Position numbers and translations under genes: made by a program
Part shown: one piece after another, positions 51,998 through 64,000 of the stretch
Layout: each line of letters begins with the position of its first letter
Position numbering within the stretch: the stretch's first letter is position 1
The notes under the pieces: model-generated
What the model saw: the letters and a program-made list of their open reading frames with translations, nothing else
The model's database searches: none
What the model was told of the DNA's origin: nothing
Assembly: GCF_034424215.1 (NCBI RefSeq)
Contig: NZ_CP139960.1
Location: 4,402,001-4,466,000 of the forward strand
Direction: 5' to 3'
Source: Niabella yanshanensis
GTDB lineage: Bacteria; Bacteroidota; Bacteroidia; Chitinophagales; Chitinophagaceae
Length of the DNA stretch: 64,000 bases

Positions 51998-52681
51998 TTA
52001 ACACACGGCATTCTTTAAGGCTTCTTTGTCCGTTAAAGCAATCGCTTTGGCATCTGTCTTAATAAAGCCTGATTCGATAAATTCATTTATGGTCTTATAT
52101 ACTGTTTCATAAGCGGTGCCCACATAAGCGGCTATATCCTGCCGGCTGGCGACAAAGGCGATAAATCCTTTTTCGTTGATCCCGAATTTGTTTTCCAGGG
52201 CCAGCAATGCATTGGCTAATCTGGCCCTCACTGTCATATGAGCCAGGTTACGCATCCTTATTTCAGAATGCATCAGCTCATCAGCCATGAACATCATAAA
52301 CTGGTAAGCAAAAAGGTGATTGGTTTTGAAAGTAGCTTCAAAAAAATCAAGGGTAATATATATCAGTGTTACAGGTGTGAGGGCGGTAGCTGTAATAGGG
52401 TATTGGTTAGTGGAGCTGCTTAATCCGCGGTGTCCGAGTATGTCCTGGTTATGGGCAAACCTAAGAATCAGCTCTTTTTCCTGGTCCCATAATTTATGCA
52501 CTTTAACAACACCGTTCAGCATAAAGTAAATACCACTTACCGGGGCGCCTTCCGTAAAAATAATTTCTCCTTTTTTATAGTGATGTACCTGTGTATGGGT
52601 GTCGAGCGCCGGCCACCACTCCTTCATACAATATTGATGTAGAAAAGAATATTGTGTCTCAACGGTTTTTTTTATACGCAT
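51998..52681 (-). CDS. Crp/Fnr-family transcription regulator
   Basis: 227 residues from ATG 52681; a TTG two codons earlier is possible. The cyclic-nucleotide-type beta barrel is seen at HHYKKGEIIFTEGAPVSGIY and the C-terminal helix-turn-helix at ASRQDIAAYVGTAYETVYKT. The cysteine set of FNR is absent, so it is not an iron-sulfur oxygen sensor. Its gene follows cobA by 26 nt and is divergent from the nitrite/nitrate operon, which makes it the likely regulator of that operon, though this is from position only. Confidence 0.86.
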   Translation of the reverse strand: MRIKKTVETQYSFLHQYCMKEWWPALDTHTQVHHYKKGEIIFTEGAPVSGIYFMLNGVVKVHKLWDQEKELILRFAHNQDILGHRGLSSSTNQYPITATALTPVTLIYITLDFFEATFKTNHLFAYQFMMFMADELMHSEIRMRNLAHMTVRARLANALLALENKFGINEKGFIAFVASRQDIAAYVGTAYETVYKTINEFIESGFIKTDAKAIALTDKEALKNAVC

Positions 52682-52706
52682 AATCAATAAAGATATATCA
52701 TCTTCT

Positions 52707-53471
52707 TTATTTATGCGCGTGGTGTAAGAACTGGTGTACCTGTTTCTGAACGGATAATTCGGTAGCCAGGTTTACCACTTCACCGATAATAATAATAGCG
52801 GGGTTTTCCAGTCCTGCATGTTGTGATCTGAAATAGATGTCTTTTACTTGTCCTGTTATCATCTTTTGATGGGGCAAGGTACCGTTTTGTATAATAGCAG
52901 CCGGAGTCTCGCCTTTCCCGTGTAGGGCGAAGAGCTCTGTAATTTGCTCCAGCTTGCTCATGGCCATTAATATAATAACGGTAGCGCTTGATTGGGCTGC
53001 TAATTGAATATCTGACGAAAGGTCTCCGTTTCTGGTGGTGCCGGTAACCACCCAAAAGCTTTCGTTGGTGCCCCTGGCTGTTAGCGGTATCATTTGTGAT
53101 GCAGGCACGGCCAGGGCGCTGGAGATGCCGGGTACTACTTCAATCTCAATTCCTGCACCTTGTGCGGTTTCTATCTCTTCCCAGGCGCGTCCGAATACAA
53201 AAGGGTCGCCTCCTTTCAATCTTACAACACATTCACATTTTTGTGCATATTCTAATATAAGGTTATTGATCTCTGACTGGCTTAAAGCGTGGCAACCAAA
53301 TCTTTTGCCCACAAACTGCCTTACACAGCGGGGGTTACTGTAAGATAGCAGTTCATCATTGGCCAGGGCATCATATAGTATTACATCAGCCTCACGCAGT
53401 TTCTTTATTGCTTTTACGGTGATCAGATCCGGATCTCCCGGACCTGCGCCGATTAAAATTAGTTTGCTCAT
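52707..53471 (-). CDS. cobA: Uroporphyrinogen-III C-methyltransferase
   Basis: 254 residues. The SAM-dependent tetrapyrrole methylase signature is clear: LILIGAGPGDPDLITVKAIK at the N-terminus, VRLKGGDPFVFGRAWEE, and EVVPGISSALAVPA. It converts uroporphyrinogen III to precorrin-2, the start of siroheme. The adjacent nirB product needs siroheme, which explains the divergent placement. The dehydrogenase/ferrochelatase half of CysG is not fused, so that step must be encoded elsewhere. Confidence 0.94.
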   Translation of the reverse strand: MSKLILIGAGPGDPDLITVKAIKKLREADVILYDALANDELLSYSNPRCVRQFVGKRFGCHALSQSEINNLILEYAQKCECVVRLKGGDPFVFGRAWEEIETAQGAGIEIEVVPGISSALAVPASQMIPLTARGTNESFWVVTGTTRNGDLSSDIQLAAQSSATVIILMAMSKLEQITELFALHGKGETPAAIIQNGTLPHQKMITGQVKDIYFRSQHAGLENPAIIIIGEVVNLATELSVQKQVHQFLHHAHK

Positions 53472-53666: not shown

Positions 53667-56162
53667 ATGAAAGTTGTTGTTATTGGTAATGGTATGGTAG
53701 GCCAGAAATTCTGCGAAAAACTGCTCTCTAAAGGGATTCCGGATTTACAACTAACTGTTTTTGGTGAGGAAACCCTCGCTGCTTACGACCGCGTACATCT
53801 CAGCTCTTACTTCGCCGGGAAAACGGTGGAGGATCTGACACTTCAGCCGGTTAAATGGTATGAAGAAAACGGGATAGACCTGAGGTTGGGTGACCCGGTT
53901 CAGGAAGTAGATCGTTTGAAAAAAAACGTGACATCGTTTGAGGGGCTTAGTATTGCATACGATTACCTGGTATTTGCTACCGGCTCTGCTGCATTTGTAC
54001 CGCCCATCCCGGGAGTAGATAAGCACGGCGTATTTGTGTACCGTACAATAGAGGATTTGAATATGATCTGGCGCCATGCGGCTACCGCAAAAACGGCGGT
54101 AGTGATTGGCGGCGGACTGTTAGGCCTTGAAGCGGCAAAAGCCTGCCTCGATCTGGGTATTAAAGATACGCATGTCATAGAGTTCGCACCCCGCCTGATG
54201 CCCAGGCAGATTGACGAAGCAGGCTCCGAAATATTGATCCAGAAGTTGAAAGAGCTGGATATCACCACCCATACGGGGAAAAATACAGCAGCGATCCTGG
54301 GCAATGAAACCATCAAGGGAATGATCTTTACAGATGGTACTATTTTAAGTACCGATATGCTGGTAATATCTGCAGGTATAAAGCCCAGAGATGAGCTGGC
54401 CCGCGCCTGTGGACTGACTGTTGGTCCCAGGGGTGGTATTGTAGTAAATGATCATATGATTACCAATGATGAGCACATTTTTGCCATAGGAGAATGCGCT
54501 TTACATAACTCGATGATCTATGGACTGGTAGCTCCCGGATATGAAATGGCGGATGTAGTGGCTACGCAACTGGCCGGTGCTGCCAAACAATTCCCGGGAT
54601 TTGATATGAGCACCAAACTTAAGCTGATCGGTATTGATGTGGCCAGCTTTGGTGATCCTTTTATCTCAGGCGACGAAGCCAGAACTATTGTATTCCGGGA
54701 TAATCACCGCGGTATTTATAAAAGGATCAACTTCTCGAATGATGGCAAAGAGTTATTAGGTGGTGTTCTGGTAGGAGATGCGGAAGCTTATAATATGTTA
54801 TTGCAGATCTGTAAAAACAAAATGGCCCTGCCTCCCGATCCGATGGACCTGATCATCAAAGCAAAAGAAGGAAGCGCAGATGCGGGAGCCGGCGTTGTGG
54901 CTTTGCCCGATGATGCTCTGATCTGCAGCTGTGAAGGCGTAACCAAATCAGATATATGCAATGCGGTTACTGAACAGGGGTGTGAAACCGTTGATGCCAT
55001 CAAAAAGTGTACGAAAGCTGCTACCGGTTGCGGAGGTTGCGCACCAATGGTGAAGGACATTATGGTACACACCATGAAGCAGCAGGGCAAGTTGGTGCGT
55101 AATGTACTTTGCGAGCATTTCGGTTATTCCAGGCAGGAATTATACGACCTGGTTAAATTGAGAGACCTGCATAGTTTTGATGAGGTGCTGGATACTTTGG
55201 GTGAGGGTGATGGCTGTGAGACCTGCCGCCCGGCGATAAGCTCTATATTAGCCAGCTTATGGAATGAGCTGATCGTTAAAAAAGAGAGCGCTACGTCTCA
55301 GGATACCAATGATCGTTTCCTGGCGAATATTCAAAAAGGAGGGACCTATTCGGTTGTACCGCGTATTCCCGGTGGAGAAATAACCCCCGATAAACTATTG
55401 GTGATTGCCCAGGTAGCAAAGAAATACAATCTATACACCAAAATAACCGGTGGCCAACGTATTGATATGTTCGGTGCCCATTTAAATGATCTGCCTTCCA
55501 TCTGGGAAGAGCTGATTGAAGCGGGCTTTGAAAGCGGACATGCTTACGGGAAATCACTGCGTACCGTTAAGAGCTGTGTGGGCAGTACCTGGTGTCGGTT
55601 TGGTTTGCATGATAGCGTGAGTTATGCTATACGCATTGAAGAACGTTATCGCGGACTTCGTTCTCCTCATAAATTAAAGTCGGCCGTATCCGGTTGTATA
55701 AGGGAGTGCGCAGAGGCGCAGTCAAAAGACTTTGGTATCATTGCTACAGAGAAAGGCTGGAACCTGTATGTATGCGGAAATGGTGGCTCCAAACCGCAAC
55801 ATGCTTTACTATTGGCAACCGACCTTGATTCTGAAACCTGTATTCAATACATCGACCGTTTCCTGATGTTTTATATTAAAACCGCTGACCCGCTGACCCG
55901 TACCGCCACCTGGCTGAACAAAATGGATGGTGGTATCGACTACCTGCGTAATGTAGTGGTGCATGATAGTCTTGGAATAGGCGCCGAGCTTGAAAGGGAG
56001 ATGCAGCTATTGGTAGACGCCTATCAATGCGAATGGAAGAACGTGGTGGAAACACCAGAGCTCAGAAGTCAGTTTACTCATTTCATAAACGCCCCCAAAG
56101 AAAAGGATCCTACCGTACAATTTGAAGCGATGCGGGATCAGAAAAAAGCTGCCACCTGGTAA
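53667..56162 (+). CDS. nirB: Assimilatory nitrite reductase [NAD(P)H], large subunit
   Basis: 831 residues. Domains in order: FAD/NAD-binding reductase (VVIGNGMVGQKFCEKLLSKG; second Rossmann VVIGGGLLGLEAAKACLDLG), a BFD-like [2Fe-2S] domain (CSCEGVTKSDICN to TGCGGCAPM, about 418-460) with a second degenerate copy (GCETCRPAI), then nitrite/sulfite reductase halves. The siroheme-4Fe4S cysteines are intact: SCVGSTWCRFG and SGCIRECAEAQ. It reduces nitrite to ammonium. First gene of the nir-nas operon, with nirD 56 nt downstream. Confidence 0.96.
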   Translation: MKVVVIGNGMVGQKFCEKLLSKGIPDLQLTVFGEETLAAYDRVHLSSYFAGKTVEDLTLQPVKWYEENGIDLRLGDPVQEVDRLKKNVTSFEGLSIAYDYLVFATGSAAFVPPIPGVDKHGVFVYRTIEDLNMIWRHAATAKTAVVIGGGLLGLEAAKACLDLGIKDTHVIEFAPRLMPRQIDEAGSEILIQKLKELDITTHTGKNTAAILGNETIKGMIFTDGTILSTDMLVISAGIKPRDELARACGLTVGPRGGIVVNDHMITNDEHIFAIGECALHNSMIYGLVAPGYEMADVVATQLAGAAKQFPGFDMSTKLKLIGIDVASFGDPFISGDEARTIVFRDNHRGIYKRINFSNDGKELLGGVLVGDAEAYNMLLQICKNKMALPPDPMDLIIKAKEGSADAGAGVVALPDDALICSCEGVTKSDICNAVTEQGCETVDAIKKCTKAATGCGGCAPMVKDIMVHTMKQQGKLVRNVLCEHFGYSRQELYDLVKLRDLHSFDEVLDTLGEGDGCETCRPAISSILASLWNELIVKKESATSQDTNDRFLANIQKGGTYSVVPRIPGGEITPDKLLVIAQVAKKYNLYTKITGGQRIDMFGAHLNDLPSIWEELIEAGFESGHAYGKSLRTVKSCVGSTWCRFGLHDSVSYAIRIEERYRGLRSPHKLKSAVSGCIRECAEAQSKDFGIIATEKGWNLYVCGNGGSKPQHALLLATDLDSETCIQYIDRFLMFYIKTADPLTRTATWLNKMDGGIDYLRNVVVHDSLGIGAELEREMQLLVDAYQCEWKNVVETPELRSQFTHFINAPKEKDPTVQFEAMRDQKKAATW

Positions 56163-56218: not shown

Positions 56219-56617
56219 ATGTCCAATCAAAATTGGTTTCACGTATGTAGTGTGCAGGATATGCCACATAATGGTGGTGTATGTGTAAAATATGGCGAGC
56301 ATCAGATAGCACTGTATTATTTCACGCACCGTAACGAGTGGTACGCTTCTCAAAACCTCTGTCCTCACAAACAGCAAATGGCATTGAGCCGTGGTATGTT
56401 AGGCTCCCAGCAGGGTGAACCCAAAGTGGCTTGTCCTTTTCATAAAAAAACCTTTTCCTTAAAAGACGGGCACTGCCTTAATGATGAGGCTTGTAGCAGT
56501 ATCAAGGTATACGATGTGCGGGTTAAAGGCGGAGAGGTTTATATCGATGTAAAGGATATGGATCAACAGGCAATGGTGCATGCACATCGGCAGGAAACAG
56601 TTTCTCCTAATATCTAA
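56219..56617 (+). CDS. nirD: Nitrite reductase small subunit, Rieske ligands retained
   Basis: 132 residues. The Rieske-type fold shows both ligand pairs, CPH in NLCPHKQQMALSRG and CPFH in VACPFHKKTFSLKDG, so a [2Fe-2S] cluster can bind. In E. coli NirD the corresponding residues are not Cys/His, so this is the cluster-bearing variant. The rest (HCLNDE, then VYDVRVKGGEVYIDV) follows NirD. It is the partner of NirB. The next gene begins 11 nt after its stop. Confidence 0.9.
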   Translation: MSNQNWFHVCSVQDMPHNGGVCVKYGEHQIALYYFTHRNEWYASQNLCPHKQQMALSRGMLGSQQGEPKVACPFHKKTFSLKDGHCLNDEACSSIKVYDVRVKGGEVYIDVKDMDQQAMVHAHRQETVSPNI

Positions 56618-56628
56618 ACCCCAAGCAG

Positions 56629-57036
56629 ATGAGAAAATTACTGAAACCACTAACAACATTAACATTAACACTTAGTCTTTTTAACGCTGGCTGGTCGCAA
56701 AATCCTTCCGCCAGGCCGGTATTGGCAGTATGGGATGGTATGGTAATCGCCGGCTATGTTGATAAAGGTGCATTTGTCAACTTCGGAGGACCTTGTATTA
56801 AATTTGCCAGCAAACCTTATGTTATAACGCTGGGAATGTTACCCTCGTTCCGCATTAAAGAAGATAAGGTGGCCGCGGGTGCAAAAAAGAATTCGCCGGT
56901 TACGCCCAATTTGGGTGCAGGGGTAAGTTTTGCTTATAAGCACCTGGCGTTGCAGGTTCCCGTGTATTATAATGCTAAAACAACTGCAGCGGACGGCCGA
57001 TGGCATGTTGGTATAGGGGCAGGTTACCGCTTCTGA
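56629..57036 (+). CDS. Small putative outer-membrane protein in the nitrate operon
   Basis: 135 residues. The signal peptide is MRKLLKPLTTLTLTLSLFNA ending GWSQ. The mature part is rich in alternating hydrophobic strands (AGYVDKGAFVNFGGPCIKFA, KPYVITLGMLPSFRIKEDKV, LGAGVSFAYKHLALQVPVYY) and ends in WHVGIGAGYRF, a terminal aromatic typical of beta-barrel proteins. The size fits a small barrel of about eight strands, which is inference. No family was recognised. Its place between nirD and the nitrate transporter suggests a role in nitrate passage or envelope adaptation. Confidence 0.66.
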   Translation: MRKLLKPLTTLTLTLSLFNAGWSQNPSARPVLAVWDGMVIAGYVDKGAFVNFGGPCIKFASKPYVITLGMLPSFRIKEDKVAAGAKKNSPVTPNLGAGVSFAYKHLALQVPVYYNAKTTAADGRWHVGIGAGYRF

Positions 57037-57079: not shown

Positions 57080-58384
57080 TTGATTATGAGCTCAGTTAAT
57101 ACAAAACCCCTCAATAAGTTGAACGTGTTTTCTTTTAAGGGAATACAGATGCGTACTTTTCATATTACCTGGTTTACCTTTTTTGTTTGCTTTTTCGGAT
57201 GGTTTGGGCTGGCGCCTTTAATGCCTACGATTAAAGAAAATTTGCAACTCGATAAATCGCAAATTGGCAATATTGTGATCGCTTCTGTTTCGGGAACCAT
57301 AGTTGCCCGTTTATTGATAGGCCGCTTATGTGATACCTGGGGTCCGAGAAAAACGTACACTGCATTACTGCTGATTGGCGCCATACCGGTAATGTGTGTG
57401 GGCTTGGCCGAAAGTTATACCAGCTTCCTTTTATTTCGCCTGGCTATAAGCGTTATCGGAGCTTCCTTTGTGATCACACAGTTTCATACGTCCATGATGT
57501 TTGCGCCCAGCATTAAGGGAACGGCTAATGCTGTTGCAGGTGGTTGGGGTAACCTCGGCGGTGGAGTTACTAATATTGTAATGCCGTTGATATTTGCGGC
57601 TATTGTAGGCGCCGGCTACACCGGTAATGAAGCCTGGCGCCAGGCTATGATCTTTCCTGGCCTGATGATGTTAATTGCCGCCTTTCTTTATTTTAAATAT
57701 ACCAAAGACACACCTGCCGGAAATTTCGACGAAATTGAAAGGGTTAAAGAAAAAGGAAAGACAGACTATAGTGTATTAAAAGACTGGCGGATCTGGGCTT
57801 TGACATTGGCTTATGCTATGTGCTTTGGAATGGAGATCACCTTCGATAATATAGCAGCGCTGCATTTTGTGCAGGAGTATCAACTGGATCAACGTTCTGC
57901 AGGTTTCTGGGCTGGTGTATTTGGATTAATGAACTTATTTGCACGGGCACTGGGCGGTATATTTGCAGACAGGATTGGTAAATCTTATGGCATGCGTGGC
58001 AAGGGTATATTGCTGGCGGGCGTATTATTACTGGAGGGCATTGGGTTGATACTATTTGCCCGGGCAGGATCACTGCCTTTGGCGATCATATCCATGCTGT
58101 CTTTTGCCTTGTTTCTTAAAATGGCCAATGGCGCCACTTATGCGATCACCCCTTTTATCAATGAAAAAAATGTGGGACTTGTAAGTGGTGTAGTAGGGGC
58201 CGGCGGAAATTTAGGCGGCATGCTCTTTGGCTTTTTGTTTAAAAGTCCTTCCATCACCTATAGCCAGGCCTTTAGGTATATTGGTATTATAGTAGTGCTG
58301 GTAGCCTTTATTGTTTTGCTGACCCGCTTCGCAAAAGTGAAGCCTGCTGCTGAGCCGGTAACTGTATTGGAACCGGTAGCCTGA
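57080..58384 (+). CDS. Nitrate/nitrite transporter, NarK/NasA-type MFS
   Basis: 434 residues, about 12 membrane segments. The nitrate signature is seen as AGGWGNLGGGVTNIVMPLIF, with the second at GAGGNLGGMLFGFLF. Substrate-binding Arg residues are in the expected helices (GTIVARLLIGRLCD and LMNLFARALGGIFADR). It brings nitrate into the cytoplasm for the reductase encoded next. A translation start at the ATG for MRTFHITWFTFFVCF, about 23 codons in, is a possible alternative. Confidence 0.92.
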   Translation: MIMSSVNTKPLNKLNVFSFKGIQMRTFHITWFTFFVCFFGWFGLAPLMPTIKENLQLDKSQIGNIVIASVSGTIVARLLIGRLCDTWGPRKTYTALLLIGAIPVMCVGLAESYTSFLLFRLAISVIGASFVITQFHTSMMFAPSIKGTANAVAGGWGNLGGGVTNIVMPLIFAAIVGAGYTGNEAWRQAMIFPGLMMLIAAFLYFKYTKDTPAGNFDEIERVKEKGKTDYSVLKDWRIWALTLAYAMCFGMEITFDNIAALHFVQEYQLDQRSAGFWAGVFGLMNLFARALGGIFADRIGKSYGMRGKGILLAGVLLLEGIGLILFARAGSLPLAIISMLSFALFLKMANGATYAITPFINEKNVGLVSGVVGAGGNLGGMLFGFLFKSPSITYSQAFRYIGIIVVLVAFIVLLTRFAKVKPAAEPVTVLEPVA

Positions 58385-58441: not shown

Positions 58442-61400
58442 ATGAGCAACCTTACCATTCATTCTCCCGGTGAAAATAGCAAGGGTATCACAACTACCTG
58501 TTGTTATTGTGGTGTGGGCTGTGGAATAGAAGTGGCCAAGGATAAGCTGGGACGGGTAATCGTAAAGGGAAACGAAAATCACTCCGTAAATAAGGGAATG
58601 TTATGCAGTAAGGGTATGAACCTGCATTATACGGTAAATGATACCAGCGACCGGTTGCTTTACCCTGAAATGCGCTATGCACGTAACCAGCCCCGGCGGC
58701 GGGTTTCTTGGGATGCGGCCCTCGAACGTACTGCAGCCGTCTTTAAAACCTTTATAGAAAAATATGGTCCGGATTCAGTTGCCTTCTATGCTTCGGGGCA
58801 GTGCCTCACGGAGGAATACTATGTAGTCAATAAGCTCATCAAAGGGTTTATTGGCAGTAACAATATAGATACCAATTCCAGGTTATGCATGAGCAGTGCC
58901 GTGGTAGGGTACAAAATGAGTTTGGGCGAGGACAGCGTACCCGTGAGCTATGATGACCTGGAGATAGCCGATGTTATTTTTGTGGCGGGAGCCAACCCTG
59001 CATGGTGCCATCCGATACTATGGCGCAGGGTTGAAGCTGCCCGTGAAAAAAATCCACAGCTTAAAATTATTGTAAGTGATCCCCGTAAAACACAAACCTG
59101 CTCCGCGGCCAATGTGCACCTCCAGCTGAACCCTGGAACGGATATTACGCTGCATCATGCCATTGGCAGGGCATTGATCGAAAATGGCGATATCAATTCA
59201 GATTTTGTTAAACAGCATACCGAGGGATTTGAAAAATACCGCGATATTGTTTTTGAAAGAACGGTCGCAGAGGCCGCTGCTATCTGCGGCGTTGAAGAGG
59301 CGCTGATATGGGAGGCGGCTTCCTATATCGGTAATGCAAGAGGTTTTATCACCATGTGGACCATGGGGCTGAACCAGAGCGTTGTGGGGGTTAATAAAAA
59401 CCTTTCGCTGATCAATTTAAACCTGATTACTGGTCATATCGGGAAACCGGGTTCGGGTCCCTTGTCTCTTACCGGTCAACCCAATGCTATGGGAGGCAGG
59501 GAGGTTGGCGGGTTGTCTAACCTATTGCCGGCGCACCGCGATTTAACGAATGAACAGCATAGAGCCGAAGTAGAGGCATTTTGGGGGGTGCCTAAAGGCC
59601 GGATCCCTGCAAAGCCGGGTCTTACGGCTACCGAAATGTTTGAAGCCCTGGAGGACGGGAGGCTGAAAGCTATATGGATACTATGTACCAATCCGTTGAT
59701 CAGTTTGCCTGATGTAAGACGGGCTGAAGCAGCGTTAAAGAAAGCAAAATTTGTAGTGGTGCAGGAGGTGAGCAATAAGCCGGAGACCCTGCAGTATGCT
59801 GACGTTATTTTTCCGGCAGCTGCATGGACTGAAAAAGAGGGCACGATGACCAATGCCGAACGCAGGGTGAGCTACCTGAATAAAATCACAGCAGCACCAG
59901 GTGAAGCCTTGCCTGATGCTGAAATTATTTGCCGTTTTGCCCAAAAAATGGGCTTTGCCGGTTTTGATTATAGTAACGCTGCGGAGATCTTTGCAGAGCA
60001 TGCCGCATTGACCAGGGGTACTAATATAGACATGAGTGCGCTGAATTACAGCATCCTGAAAGAGAAACTAACGGTGCAATGGCCTTACACAGATGTTCAT
60101 GCAAAAGCACAGAATGATGATGAAGCTTCCCTGGGAACGAAAAGATTGTTTGCTGACCGTCAGTTTTATACCACCAGTAAAAAAGCGATCATTCACTCTT
60201 TTGAGGATGTAAATAAATCGGAGGCGCTAAGTGCTGATTTTCCGCTAATCCTTACTACAGGCCGCATCCGGGATCAGTGGCATACCATGAGCAAGACGGG
60301 GAAGGTAAATAAGCTGAAACAGCATATATCAGCTGCCTTCCTGGAAATACATCCTGATGATGCCTTGCAGAGAGGTATCCGGGAAAATGCGCTGGTCGTT
60401 ATTAAAAGCCGGCGTGGTGAAGTGCAGGTGAAAGCGAAACTTTCGGGGGATATTAAGAAAGGGGTTGTTTTCCTGCCTATGCATTGGGGGAAGGTGTTGA
60501 ACAGCGATTTGAACCGGGCTAATAATGTTACCAATAACCTGCTCGATCCGAAGAGTAAAGAGCCGGATTTTAAATTTACAGCCGTTGAGGTCAGTCCTTT
60601 CAAAAAGCCCCAACAAAAAATAATTGTCGTAGGTGCCGGGGCGGCAGCCTGCGGTTTTGTAAAATCTTACCGGAATATAAATACCGAAGATGAAATAGAA
60701 GTATTTAGTAAAGAGGCTTTTCCTTTTTATAACCGGGTGCTATTGCCGGACTATATAACCGGGACCTTACAGTGGGATAACCTGGTTAAAATGACCGATG
60801 CTGAAGAGTATGCTTACCAGGTAAAATTGCATCGGGGTGTCAGTATAATATCCATTGACCGGGAAAATAAAACAGTTACCGATAGCGATGGAAGGGTGCA
60901 TGCTTATGATATATTGGTCCTGGCAACCGGTAGCCGCTCTGCCATGTTGCGTGATGTGCCGGATATGAAAGGCATTTTCACGATGCGTAACCGTTACGAT
61001 GCGGATCGCTTTTTAGAACATACCAAAGAGACTCCGGGAAGAGTGGTGATTGTAGGTGGTGGACTGCTGGGGATAGAGTTGGCCACATCTTTAAGAGAAA
61101 TTAATGTAGCATCAACGGTAATTCAACGTACTTCCCGTTTAATGAACCGGCAGTTAGATCCATTGGGCAGCCAGCTACTGCATGAGGAGTTAGCAGATAA
61201 AGGCGTGGAGGTTTATTATAATGATGAAATTGAGCGATTCCTGGGTATGACAGCTATTACAGGACTTAAGCTTAAAAGTGGTTTGACGATCCATTGCACT
61301 ACTGTGGTAATAGCTATTGGTACTACGCCTAATATAGAGATAGCCCGGGAAAGCAACTTGCAATGTAAACGCGGAGTGGTGGTGAATGATTATTTGCAAA

Positions 61401-62032
61401 CCAGTGACCCATCTGTTTTTGCGATAGGGGAGATTGCGGAATTCAAAGGTGCATTATATGGCATCACCGCAGCTGCAGAGCAGCAGGCAGAAATAGTAGC
61501 CAGGTATATGAATGGTGATATTGCGCAGTTTTACCAGGGCTCTTTGCTGATGAATATCCTGAAAATTCACGGAACAGATCTTTGCTCTTTAGGAGAGGTA
61601 GAGTGCCCGGATGATCCTGCTTATGAAGAAGTGGTGTTTATTGATAAAGCAAAGCGGTATTATAAAAAGTGTATTATTCATAATGATCGTTTGATCGGGG
61701 CTATCTTAATTGGAGATAAGAATGAGTTCCTGGAGTACCGGAGTTTGATTGAGAATCGGATAGAGTTGAGTGAAAAGCGACTTCAGCTGCTTCGTTCCGG
61801 TAAAGGGGCCGAGCCGGTTATTGGTAAACTGGTATGCAGTTGTAATAATGTAGGTGAAGGTAACCTGGTGAACAAAATTAAGGAAGGCTGTACCGATCAT
61901 TTACAATTGTGCCAGCTGAGTGGCGCAGGCATGGGATGTGGCAGTTGCCGGCCGGAAGTAAAAGCGATCCTTGAAAGGACGTTGGACCTGGTGCCTGCAG
62001 ACAGTAAGAAGATTCAACAAATAAGCGCTTAA
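58442..62032 (+). CDS. Assimilatory nitrate reductase fused to an FAD reductase and [2Fe-2S] domain
   Basis: 1196 residues. Residues 1-715 are a NasA/NapA-type molybdopterin oxidoreductase: 4Fe-4S motif C20-x2-C23-x3-C27-x27-C55, and a probable Mo-ligand Cys149 in SRLCMSSAVVGYK. From about 727 a complete pyridine-nucleotide/FAD reductase follows (KIIVVGAGAAACGFVKSY and VVIVGGGLLGIELATSL), as in NasB or the NirB N-terminus. About 1130-1175 is a BFD-like [2Fe-2S] domain (VCSCNNVGEGNLVNK, GMGCGSCRPEV). One chain thus takes electrons from NAD(P)H to nitrate. Its TAA overlaps the next ATG by one base. Confidence 0.92.
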   Translation: MSNLTIHSPGENSKGITTTCCYCGVGCGIEVAKDKLGRVIVKGNENHSVNKGMLCSKGMNLHYTVNDTSDRLLYPEMRYARNQPRRRVSWDAALERTAAVFKTFIEKYGPDSVAFYASGQCLTEEYYVVNKLIKGFIGSNNIDTNSRLCMSSAVVGYKMSLGEDSVPVSYDDLEIADVIFVAGANPAWCHPILWRRVEAAREKNPQLKIIVSDPRKTQTCSAANVHLQLNPGTDITLHHAIGRALIENGDINSDFVKQHTEGFEKYRDIVFERTVAEAAAICGVEEALIWEAASYIGNARGFITMWTMGLNQSVVGVNKNLSLINLNLITGHIGKPGSGPLSLTGQPNAMGGREVGGLSNLLPAHRDLTNEQHRAEVEAFWGVPKGRIPAKPGLTATEMFEALEDGRLKAIWILCTNPLISLPDVRRAEAALKKAKFVVVQEVSNKPETLQYADVIFPAAAWTEKEGTMTNAERRVSYLNKITAAPGEALPDAEIICRFAQKMGFAGFDYSNAAEIFAEHAALTRGTNIDMSALNYSILKEKLTVQWPYTDVHAKAQNDDEASLGTKRLFADRQFYTTSKKAIIHSFEDVNKSEALSADFPLILTTGRIRDQWHTMSKTGKVNKLKQHISAAFLEIHPDDALQRGIRENALVVIKSRRGEVQVKAKLSGDIKKGVVFLPMHWGKVLNSDLNRANNVTNNLLDPKSKEPDFKFTAVEVSPFKKPQQKIIVVGAGAAACGFVKSYRNINTEDEIEVFSKEAFPFYNRVLLPDYITGTLQWDNLVKMTDAEEYAYQVKLHRGVSIISIDRENKTVTDSDGRVHAYDILVLATGSRSAMLRDVPDMKGIFTMRNRYDADRFLEHTKETPGRVVIVGGGLLGIELATSLREINVASTVIQRTSRLMNRQLDPLGSQLLHEELADKGVEVYYNDEIERFLGMTAITGLKLKSGLTIHCTTVVIAIGTTPNIEIARESNLQCKRGVVVNDYLQTSDPSVFAIGEIAEFKGALYGITAAAEQQAEIVARYMNGDIAQFYQGSLLMNILKIHGTDLCSLGEVECPDDPAYEEVVFIDKAKRYYKKCIIHNDRLIGAILIGDKNEFLEYRSLIENRIELSEKRLQLLRSGKGAEPVIGKLVCSCNNVGEGNLVNKIKEGCTDHLQLCQLSGAGMGCGSCRPEVKAILERTLDLVPADSKKIQQISA

Positions 62033-63516
62033 TGAAAGGCTATCATACCATAAAGATCAATTGTAAGGGAGGAATTATATCTCCCGGTGAGCTGCTGGAT
62101 ATTTTGAATGTAGTCTCACAGGCGGCTGTGAAGCAGGTGGGATTTGGTTTGAGACAACAGCTGCTGATCGATGTGGAAGAAAACCTGGTCGGTAAGCTGG
62201 CGGAAGGATTGGGACTTTTAGATATTGCTTACGAAGTTGATAGGGATGAGCATCCTAATATAGTAAGTTCTTACCCCGCTGAAGAGGTTTTTATTAACAA
62301 TAGCTGGTTGAGCGAAGGGGTGTATAAAGATATATTGGACGAGTTAGACTACCGGCCCAGGTTAAAGATCAATATCTCAGACAGCAATCAGAGTTTTACA
62401 CCTTTACTTACGGGTAATATCAATTGGGTAGCTTCCCCGCGTAATCCCCACTTCTGGCATCTTTTCATTCGCTTTCCAAAAACCAATAGTGTATTTGAGT
62501 GGAACGAAATGGTATATACCAATGATGTTGCCCGGATCTCGCGTGATATTGAAAACATTATTTATAATGATACTGCGGCATTTGTTCATAACCCCTCTGC
62601 TGATGGAGGAGCGCTGTTTGATGTTGTTAAAAAGGGTACCTACATAACGCGAACCGCAAATGAACGTATGGTATTGCCTGCTTTCAATCTTCCTTATTAC
62701 GAAGGATTTAACCGTCATAATAATAAGTACTGGCTGGGTGTGTATAGGAGAAACGAAATGTTTGCGGTATCATTTTTAAAGGAACTCTGTCAGCTGTGCT
62801 TAAGTACCAAGCTGGGGCAGCTTTGTTCAACACCCTGGAAATCGATCATTATAAAAGGGATTGACGAAAAGGATAAGCATTGGTGGAGCAGCCTGTTGGA
62901 TCAACATGAGATCAACATGCGTCATGCCGCCAATGAGCTGAATTTCCAGGTGGAGGATAATGATTATGGCGCTAAACGATTAAAGACATGGCTGGTGCGT
63001 AAGCTGAATGCAATGGATGCCCGCACTTTTGGTATTTGTATAGGAATCAAAACGCGTAAGGGGAGTGAGATATTCAGCAGTATTCTCATTAAGCGAAAAC
63101 CGCTGGTAAAAGTGCTGGGTAAAGGGTTCTTTTATGTGTACGATATTTTATGCTCCAAAGATTTTAATCCTAATGAGCGCACGGAAACGGTATTTATTAG
63201 CAATATTACCCGCTGGCACCTGGCGTCTGAGTTGCAGAACGCGGTTTTATGGTATTATAAGAGGAAGACAGAGCAGCGGGTAGCGCCACCCCAACCGGTT
63301 CCGGCTACCGTTAAGCCTGTAAAAGAGCCGGGAGAATGGCCTTATCAATGTACACATTGTTTAAGTGTTTATGATAGTATATATGGAGATCCGGACCAGG
63401 GAGTGGTAGCTGGTATTGCATTCCGGCAATTGCCGGATACTTATTGCTGTCCTACCTGCGAAGCACCAAAAAAGGATTTTAAGCGGATTTCATTGGAGTT
63501 TGTAGGTGAGCTGTGA
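62032..63516 (+). CDS. Siroheme-cysteine-less nitrite/sulfite-reductase-like protein with C-terminal rubredoxin
   Basis: 494 residues. Two ferredoxin-like half domains of the nitrite/sulfite reductase type are recognisable: VGFGLRQQLLIDVEE (about 36-50) and CLSTKLGQLCSTPWKSIIIK (256-275). The segment RLKINISDSNQSFTPLLTGN (110-129) aligns with the RKFKIAxSGCxxxC region, but its cysteines are replaced, so the siroheme/4Fe4S site is lost. After a Pro-rich linker a rubredoxin follows: C440-x2-C443 and C473-x2-C476 with GDPDQGVVAGIAF between. Start codon overlaps the nitrate reductase stop, so the two are co-translated. Likely an electron carrier or assembly factor of nitrate assimilation; this is inference. 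Confidence 0.75.
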   Translation: MKGYHTIKINCKGGIISPGELLDILNVVSQAAVKQVGFGLRQQLLIDVEENLVGKLAEGLGLLDIAYEVDRDEHPNIVSSYPAEEVFINNSWLSEGVYKDILDELDYRPRLKINISDSNQSFTPLLTGNINWVASPRNPHFWHLFIRFPKTNSVFEWNEMVYTNDVARISRDIENIIYNDTAAFVHNPSADGGALFDVVKKGTYITRTANERMVLPAFNLPYYEGFNRHNNKYWLGVYRRNEMFAVSFLKELCQLCLSTKLGQLCSTPWKSIIIKGIDEKDKHWWSSLLDQHEINMRHAANELNFQVEDNDYGAKRLKTWLVRKLNAMDARTFGICIGIKTRKGSEIFSSILIKRKPLVKVLGKGFFYVYDILCSKDFNPNERTETVFISNITRWHLASELQNAVLWYYKRKTEQRVAPPQPVPATVKPVKEPGEWPYQCTHCLSVYDSIYGDPDQGVVAGIAFRQLPDTYCCPTCEAPKKDFKRISLEFVGEL

Positions 63517-63536: not shown

Positions 63537-63571
63537 GATGATCCATGAACTATGAACCATGATCCCGGATC
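63537..63571. repeat. 7-nt-periodic repeat between convergent genes
   Basis: Successive heptamers GATGATC, CATGAAC, TATGAAC, CATGATC, CCGGATC in the 54-bp gap between the rubredoxin protein gene and mobA. Confidence 0.6.
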
Positions 63572-64000
63572 TACAGCCCATTCAGGTCGGCATGTGCGTT
63601 GAAGTTACGGAAGTATTTTTTTTGCTCCTCTTTAAGAGGTAAAGTGGCAAGCCGCAGATGATCCAATGTGAATTTCATGCTGAACTTCTTTAGTTGTCCT
63701 TCGCGCAGCATGGTCATTATTTGATGAAGCGCGGCAGCAGTATATATTGCGCACAGCGGTTCTGCCTCGCCTTCATTGGTATATAAAAAAACCTCAGCAT
63801 CCTGTTTTTGATACAGGGTATACAGTTCTTTGAGTAAAAATGTTTCCATCAGGGGCATATCGCAGGCCAGTATAAACAGGTCTTCTGTGGGATTGGCGAT
63901 GTGCGCACTTAGAAGCCCGAGTAGTGGTCCTTTTACAGGAAGGACGGTATTATCGGTTATTAATTCAACACCCGGCAGGCTATGAGCATAACTGTTTTCC
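63571..64000 (-). CDS. mobA: Molybdenum cofactor guanylyltransferase (5' end cut by window)
   Basis: The minus-strand frame is open from the right edge to a stop at 63571, about 142 codons. The visible part has GVELITDNTVLPVKGPLLGL and FILACDMPLMETFLLKEL, the GPL and CDMP motifs of MobA, then a variable C-terminus. It attaches GMP to molybdopterin to make the bis-MGD cofactor the nitrate reductase needs. Convergent with the nitrate operon. An internal Met at 63858 is not the start. Confidence 0.86.
   Translation of the reverse strand, partial: ENSYAHSLPGVELITDNTVLPVKGPLLGLLSAHIANPTEDLFILACDMPLMETFLLKELYTLYQKQDAEVFLYTNEGEAEPLCAIYTAAALHQIMTMLREGQLKKFSMKFTLDHLRLATLPLKEEQKKYFRNFNAHADLNGL

Follow-up and report, generated by a model that had tools for sequence, protein, structure and literature searches.

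A rubredoxin protein that accompanies the NasA fusion

The window, by which we mean the whole stretch of 64,000 nucleotides analysed, encodes a 494-aa protein that, as judged from its sequence and distribution, is a real, conserved and uncharacterised partner of a NasA-type fusion in the Bacteroidota samples searched, with a function that we only infer. Its gene (62032..63516, forward strand, from the open reading frame and its translation) starts with ATG and codes for a body akin to nitrite and sulfite reductases (NiR/SiR; residues 1-412, 62032..63267), a Pro-rich linker (residues 413-437, 63268..63342) and a rubredoxin domain (residues 438-483, 63343..63480). The sequence-only reading had reported a one-base overlap with nasA, a Pro-rich linker and a complete rubredoxin, and all three stand: base 62032 is common to the nasA stop codon and the start of the 494-aa frame, the linker is evident from the sequence, and the rubredoxin matches PF00301 (E 5.3e-14), with Cys440, Cys443, Cys473 and Cys476, in two CX2C motifs, kept in 64 of 64 rubredoxin-bearing homologues.

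The gene order on the forward strand is nirB, nirD, a 135-aa ORF, narK, nasA and the body-rubredoxin gene. NirB (53667..56162), NirD (56219..56617) and the NarK-family nitrate/nitrite transporter (57080..58384) score over their family cut-offs. The 1196-aa molybdoenzyme (58442..62032), which has FAD (NirB/NorW-like) and BFD-like domains fused to it, scores under all curated cut-offs, with NCBIfam formate dehydrogenase alpha and then NasC as its best matches, and we name it NasA, a nitrate reductase, because of the operon context and because a homologue is annotated as nitrate reductase. Its FAD domain matches the NADH:flavorubredoxin reductase NorW at E 7e-47, under that family's cut-off. Upstream, on the opposite strand, are cobA, for the uroporphyrinogen-III C-methyltransferase of siroheme synthesis (52707..53471, over its family cut-off), and a gene for a Crp/Fnr-like regulator (51998..52687, below family cut-offs); downstream, a convergent MobA-like molybdenum cofactor gene (63571..63999, reverse strand, below cut-off) is cut by the window end.

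The host genome is one contig of 5.54 Mb, and the named relatives found were three Niabella records (L002-L004). The 135-aa ORF between nirD and narK (56629-57036) is matched in these three, and in each of them the reading frame breaks between the body and the rubredoxin; other genes are broken too in L002 and L004, which makes assembly error likely there, and the other matches in L003 are unbroken.

Linkage to NasA in the family and the phylum

Among 195 genomes sampled from the window's family, the body occurs in 45 (50 matches); 36 genomes have a NasA fusion match reaching E 1e-150, and every one of these also has the body. Thirty-seven of the 50 matches bear a rubredoxin in an operon setting, 36 of them with at least the end of NasA adjoining; the remaining one, in G025, has a NarM-like gene next to it but no NasA match, and sits close to the start of its contig. 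A further three bear a rubredoxin away from NasA, and ten are short forms without it. The phylum sample (395 genomes, overlapping the family sample) gave 30 body matches, including one short form (G070) and one match (L115 in G285, E 5.8e-4) with internal stops that was taken as spurious; a fusion reaching the C-terminal domains is present in 33 genomes and accompanied by the body in 28. Outside the window's family, the 24 phylum genomes with both genes have them within 1 kb of each other on the same strand. The spacing between the NasA and body genes, with start codons set by script, ranged from -11 to 606 bp (-4 in seven loci, -1 in one) in 32 usable loci of 34 measured, L037 and L080 being omitted as apparently mis-assigned.

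Given this faithful co-occurrence, the protein probably serves the NasA-fusion nitrate reductase as a dedicated helper that has yet to be studied, and nitrate assimilation in Bacteroidota appears to include an extra component, found in all family-sample genomes that have the fusion. The tie to the nitrate operon that had been proposed is thus borne out (36 of 36), but ten of the 50 matches, which lack the rubredoxin and had no nitrate gene matched nearby, and three rubredoxin-bearing copies off NasA argue against a purely nitrate role. These three (L063-L065) are second copies in three genomes of one genus, each with NasA elsewhere. In seven of the 74 genomes searched (L036, L037, L042, L043, L044, L045 and L055), the body gene has a NarM-like PF09655 gene as its neighbour; PF09655 matched nothing in the window's genome (G000), and a Pfam scan of the window protein, with hits taken to E 1, did not list it.

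NirB scored over its family cut-off in 35 of the 36 family-sample fusion genomes, the exception (G048, 83% complete) having only the FAD part of NasA and weaker matches listed for NirB, and each of the 24 phylum genomes with body and fusion outside the window's family has a NirB-like frame, 836-864 aa long, in which PF01077 is matched once. Five fusion genomes lack the body (G406, G241, G201, G342 and G366); their NasA is 48-55% identical to that of the window, no NirB-like frame was found in them at E 1e-10, and each has a NirA-like gene near NasA. Because NirB accompanies the body, and the fusions lacking NirB have NirA and no body, the body-rubredoxin protein is very unlikely to be itself the nitrite reductase. 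The pattern of NirA without the body may reflect lineage rather than function, as the five genomes represent three families only. At these body-less NasA loci (L192-L196) the NirA-like reductase lies nearby, and L193-L195 have, by eye, two further flavoprotein-like ORFs.

A body distantly related to siroheme reductases

Profile comparison indicates that the body, over all of its 412 aa, is very distantly related to the two-repeat siroheme sulfite/nitrite reductases. Alignment by hhalign of 74 body homologues with 26 SiR/NiR sequences gave P 2.8e-10 and a probability of 96.8 over 395 columns, spanning the whole body; in ten controls, P was 0.3 and 0.51 for two reversals, 0.22-0.6 for five column shuffles and 0.051-0.33 for three unrelated families. 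The 74 rows comprised the window protein with 49 loci from the family sample and 24 from the phylum sample, omitting L002-L004 (broken frames), L086-L090 (a repeat of the same genes) and L115, and the reductase set was without L084, L085 and L120 (NirB or repeats). The match was strong with 74 sequences and had been weak in an earlier run with 40 (best P 1.1e-5; 0.011 with the CysI set); the siroheme part of NirB alone against the 74-sequence set reached only P 7.9e-4.

In Pfam, the first ferredoxin-like half domain (PF03460; residues 2-56, 62035..62199) scores 19.3 bits in the window protein, under the cut-off of 24, and is matched by 39 of 40 family members scanned (E up to 0.01, best 5.9e-11), these being 40 of the 50 family-sample matches, with ten close ones omitted. 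No PF01077 match was listed among the same 40. Of the two NiR/SiR-like half domains first read from the sequence, the first is hence backed by PF03460 across the family, and the second by hhalign only, as part of the whole-body alignment. The AlphaFold model of the window protein was poor (pLDDT 41.0; 55.3 for the N-terminal 205 aa alone), and Foldseek with the 205-aa model gave no match at E 0.001 or better; Mycobacterium tuberculosis NirA came third in its list, at E 0.013, and tobacco nitrite reductase appeared at ranks 38 and 47, amid unrelated folds, which we did not count as support. A profile search of PDB sequences returned weak RecA and utrophin rows only.

We used the hhalign alignment to map cofactor-site residues onto E. 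coli sulfite reductase. The CX5C and CX3C motifs that supply the 4Fe-4S ligands occur in none of the 74 homologues in a cysteine census, in agreement with the loss of these cysteines claimed earlier. The place assigned to that loss was wrong: RLKINISDSNQSFTPLLTGN is not the cluster region, and aligns with the first-repeat strand of Lys215/Lys217, where E. coli sulfite reductase itself has no cysteine. By that alignment, the cluster region would lie at about residues 297-345 of the window protein. Neither Cys479 nor Cys483 has a cysteine as its equivalent, the sites being replaced or gapped (Cys483 in a gap), and 73 of 74 homologues share His298 of the window protein, which aligns near the first of the lost cysteine pairs. 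Among Arg83, Arg153, Lys215 and Lys217, which we take to be the anion-binding residues, the Lys217 site is Lys in 69 of 74, the Arg83 site Lys or Arg in 57, the Lys215 site Lys or Arg in 45, and the Arg153 site neither Arg nor Lys in any. The equivalent of Arg117 is present in 74 of 74, the Gln121 site is mostly Leu or Ile, the Asn149 site is variable and the His123 equivalent falls in an alignment gap. The earlier description of a dead reductase scaffold holds for the iron-sulfur site (0 of 74) and is only presumptive for the pocket, given that all 74 homologues share 16 invariant residues in the body.

Rubredoxin-less forms and rates of evolution

The ten rubredoxin-less proteins form one group in a quick tree (SH-aLRT 100), nested among the rubredoxin-bearing proteins under midpoint rooting. 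No nitrate gene was matched within about 10 kb on each side of them (less at contig ends), and eight of the ten genomes are without both the NasA fusion (E 1e-150) and a NirB-like match. Searches of one draft genome with a short form (G019, 98% complete) gave no PF01077 match and no siroheme methyltransferase. This clade away from nitrate genes suggests that the body probably has another use, without rubredoxin, nitrate genes and, in G019, siroheme. The short forms (L046-L054 and L056) lie in varied settings; in L047 a NirA-like reductase gene adjoins on one side, and by eye the genes on the other look like those of a heme pathway.

The body evolves about 2.5 times as fast as the Mo domain of NasA, with which its distances correlate best (0.65 for 31 loci, 0.69 for 20 loci). 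The partial distance correlation with the Mo domain (0.33 and 0.30 for 31 and 20 loci, respectively) is a weak hint of a link to NasA, because the values for the transporter NarK are close (0.25 and 0.27). For the body, six of the seven pairs compared had dN/dS between 0.002 and 0.079, and dS was saturated or high in the seventh pair and in some of the rest; two pairs of short forms gave 0.079 and 0.026 at high dS, and a third gave no value. For the rubredoxin part, dN/dS was 0.141 in one pair, and another pair gave no value.

Possible roles of the protein

The role that we tentatively put forward, although we stop short of calling it probable, is that of a redox adaptor or docking subunit of NasA/NirBD, devoid of the iron-sulfur site of siroheme reductases, in the NADH-type nitrate assimilation of Bacteroidota. 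NasA and/or NirBD would offer the body a docking site, and the rubredoxin attached to it, reduced by the NorW-like FAD domains of NasA and NirB, might shuttle electrons between the NADH-oxidising and the nitrate- and nitrite-reducing sites; such sharing would limit nitrite build-up. The model is by analogy with the ferredoxin NasG of Paracoccus, which is described as a carrier of electrons from the NADH site of NasB to both reduction sites that prevents nitrite accumulation (PMC4724949). NasG is likewise small and conserved, and its gene accompanies those for the assimilatory nitrate and nitrite reductases, whereas the window protein has a rubredoxin in place of a ferredoxin and tethers it to a large reductase-derived body (PMC4724949). 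If the adaptor model is right, a catalytic siroheme-reductase fold has been turned into a helper protein, whose gene would be a candidate for the control of nitrite leakage in nitrate assimilation. In favour of an adaptor are the linkage to NasA, the presence of NirB, the NorW-like match of the NasA FAD domain, the four conserved rubredoxin cysteines and the distance correlation with the Mo domain. Against it, NasA and NirB each have their own FAD and BFD-like domains and look NADH-complete, so that by composition no extra carrier is needed; the partial correlation with NarK nearly equals that with the Mo domain; the ten-member short clade retains the body without the rubredoxin, mostly in genomes that also lack the fusion and NirB; and among the five body-less fusions, from three families, lineage and reductase type are confounded.

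Somewhat doubtful, yet possible, is a protein that helps NasA (or NirB) to mature or assemble, in which the body would hold the apo-enzyme or a cofactor and the rubredoxin would be an iron or redox module. Linkage to NasA and the fast evolution of the body fit such a factor, and helpers do occur in this slot, as six operons have the NarM-like PF09655 gene between those for NasA and the body; NarM is needed for the cyanobacterial nitrate reductase. The window protein resembles NarM in being the product of an accessory gene adjoining an assimilatory nitrate reductase, but has no PF09655 match, and some operons have both genes: NarM co-occurs with the body in all seven NarM-bearing genomes, hence neither replaces the other, and the five NasA fusions 48-55% identical to that of the window lack the body. 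We regard as unlikely a working enzyme whose old pocket binds heme, siroheme or another ligand and whose rubredoxin replaces the 4Fe-4S relay, for instance in NO or hydroxylamine removal. The 16 invariant residues, the Arg117, Lys217 and Arg83 equivalents and His298 all speak for it; the altered Arg153, Gln121, His123 and Asn149 sites, the lost Cys479 and Cys483, the short form in G019 (no PF01077 or siroheme methyltransferase match) and the absence of the rubredoxin from the short clade speak against it. Its most specific version, a reductase with a heme-like cofactor in the old siroheme pocket, the near-invariant His298 as possible new axial ligand and a rubredoxin that stands in for the cluster and supplies single electrons, for example to remove NO or hydroxylamine arising in nitrate assimilation, seems quite improbable to us. 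Least credible by far is that an old NirA-type reductase is decaying and has survived only by chance: the fast evolution, the lost cluster and the NasA-linked NirA of other lineages would agree with decay, but the low body dN/dS (in six of seven pairs, some with saturated or high dS) and the presence of the body in 36 of 36 family-sample and 28 of 33 phylum-sample fusion genomes speak against it.

Relation to known proteins

Relative to CysI and NirA, the window family shares the two-repeat architecture over the whole body and some pocket residues, but differs in the absence of the 4Fe-4S cysteines (0 of 74) and of a PF01077 match (40 scanned), in the replaced Arg153 and in its rubredoxin tail. 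Flavorubredoxin and the rubredoxin-fused chains named hydroxylamine reductase also combine a rubredoxin with a larger redox-enzyme fold in one chain; the partner module of such proteins is catalytic, whereas no catalytic cofactor is evident in the window protein. Rubredoxin has a part in clostridial nitrate reduction. The literature searched, mostly outside subscription journals, yielded no description of a NiR/SiR-body-rubredoxin protein, nor is the window protein described in the available parts of PMC4724949, PMC5264521 and PMC13366656.

A scan of viral contigs found no relative of the protein, and a search of 72,556 plasmid records gave four matches, in Spirosoma, Hymenobacter and two Persicobacter; two are confirmed Bacteroidota and the other two presumably are as well. 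The two annotated homologues among them are named just 'rubredoxin'.
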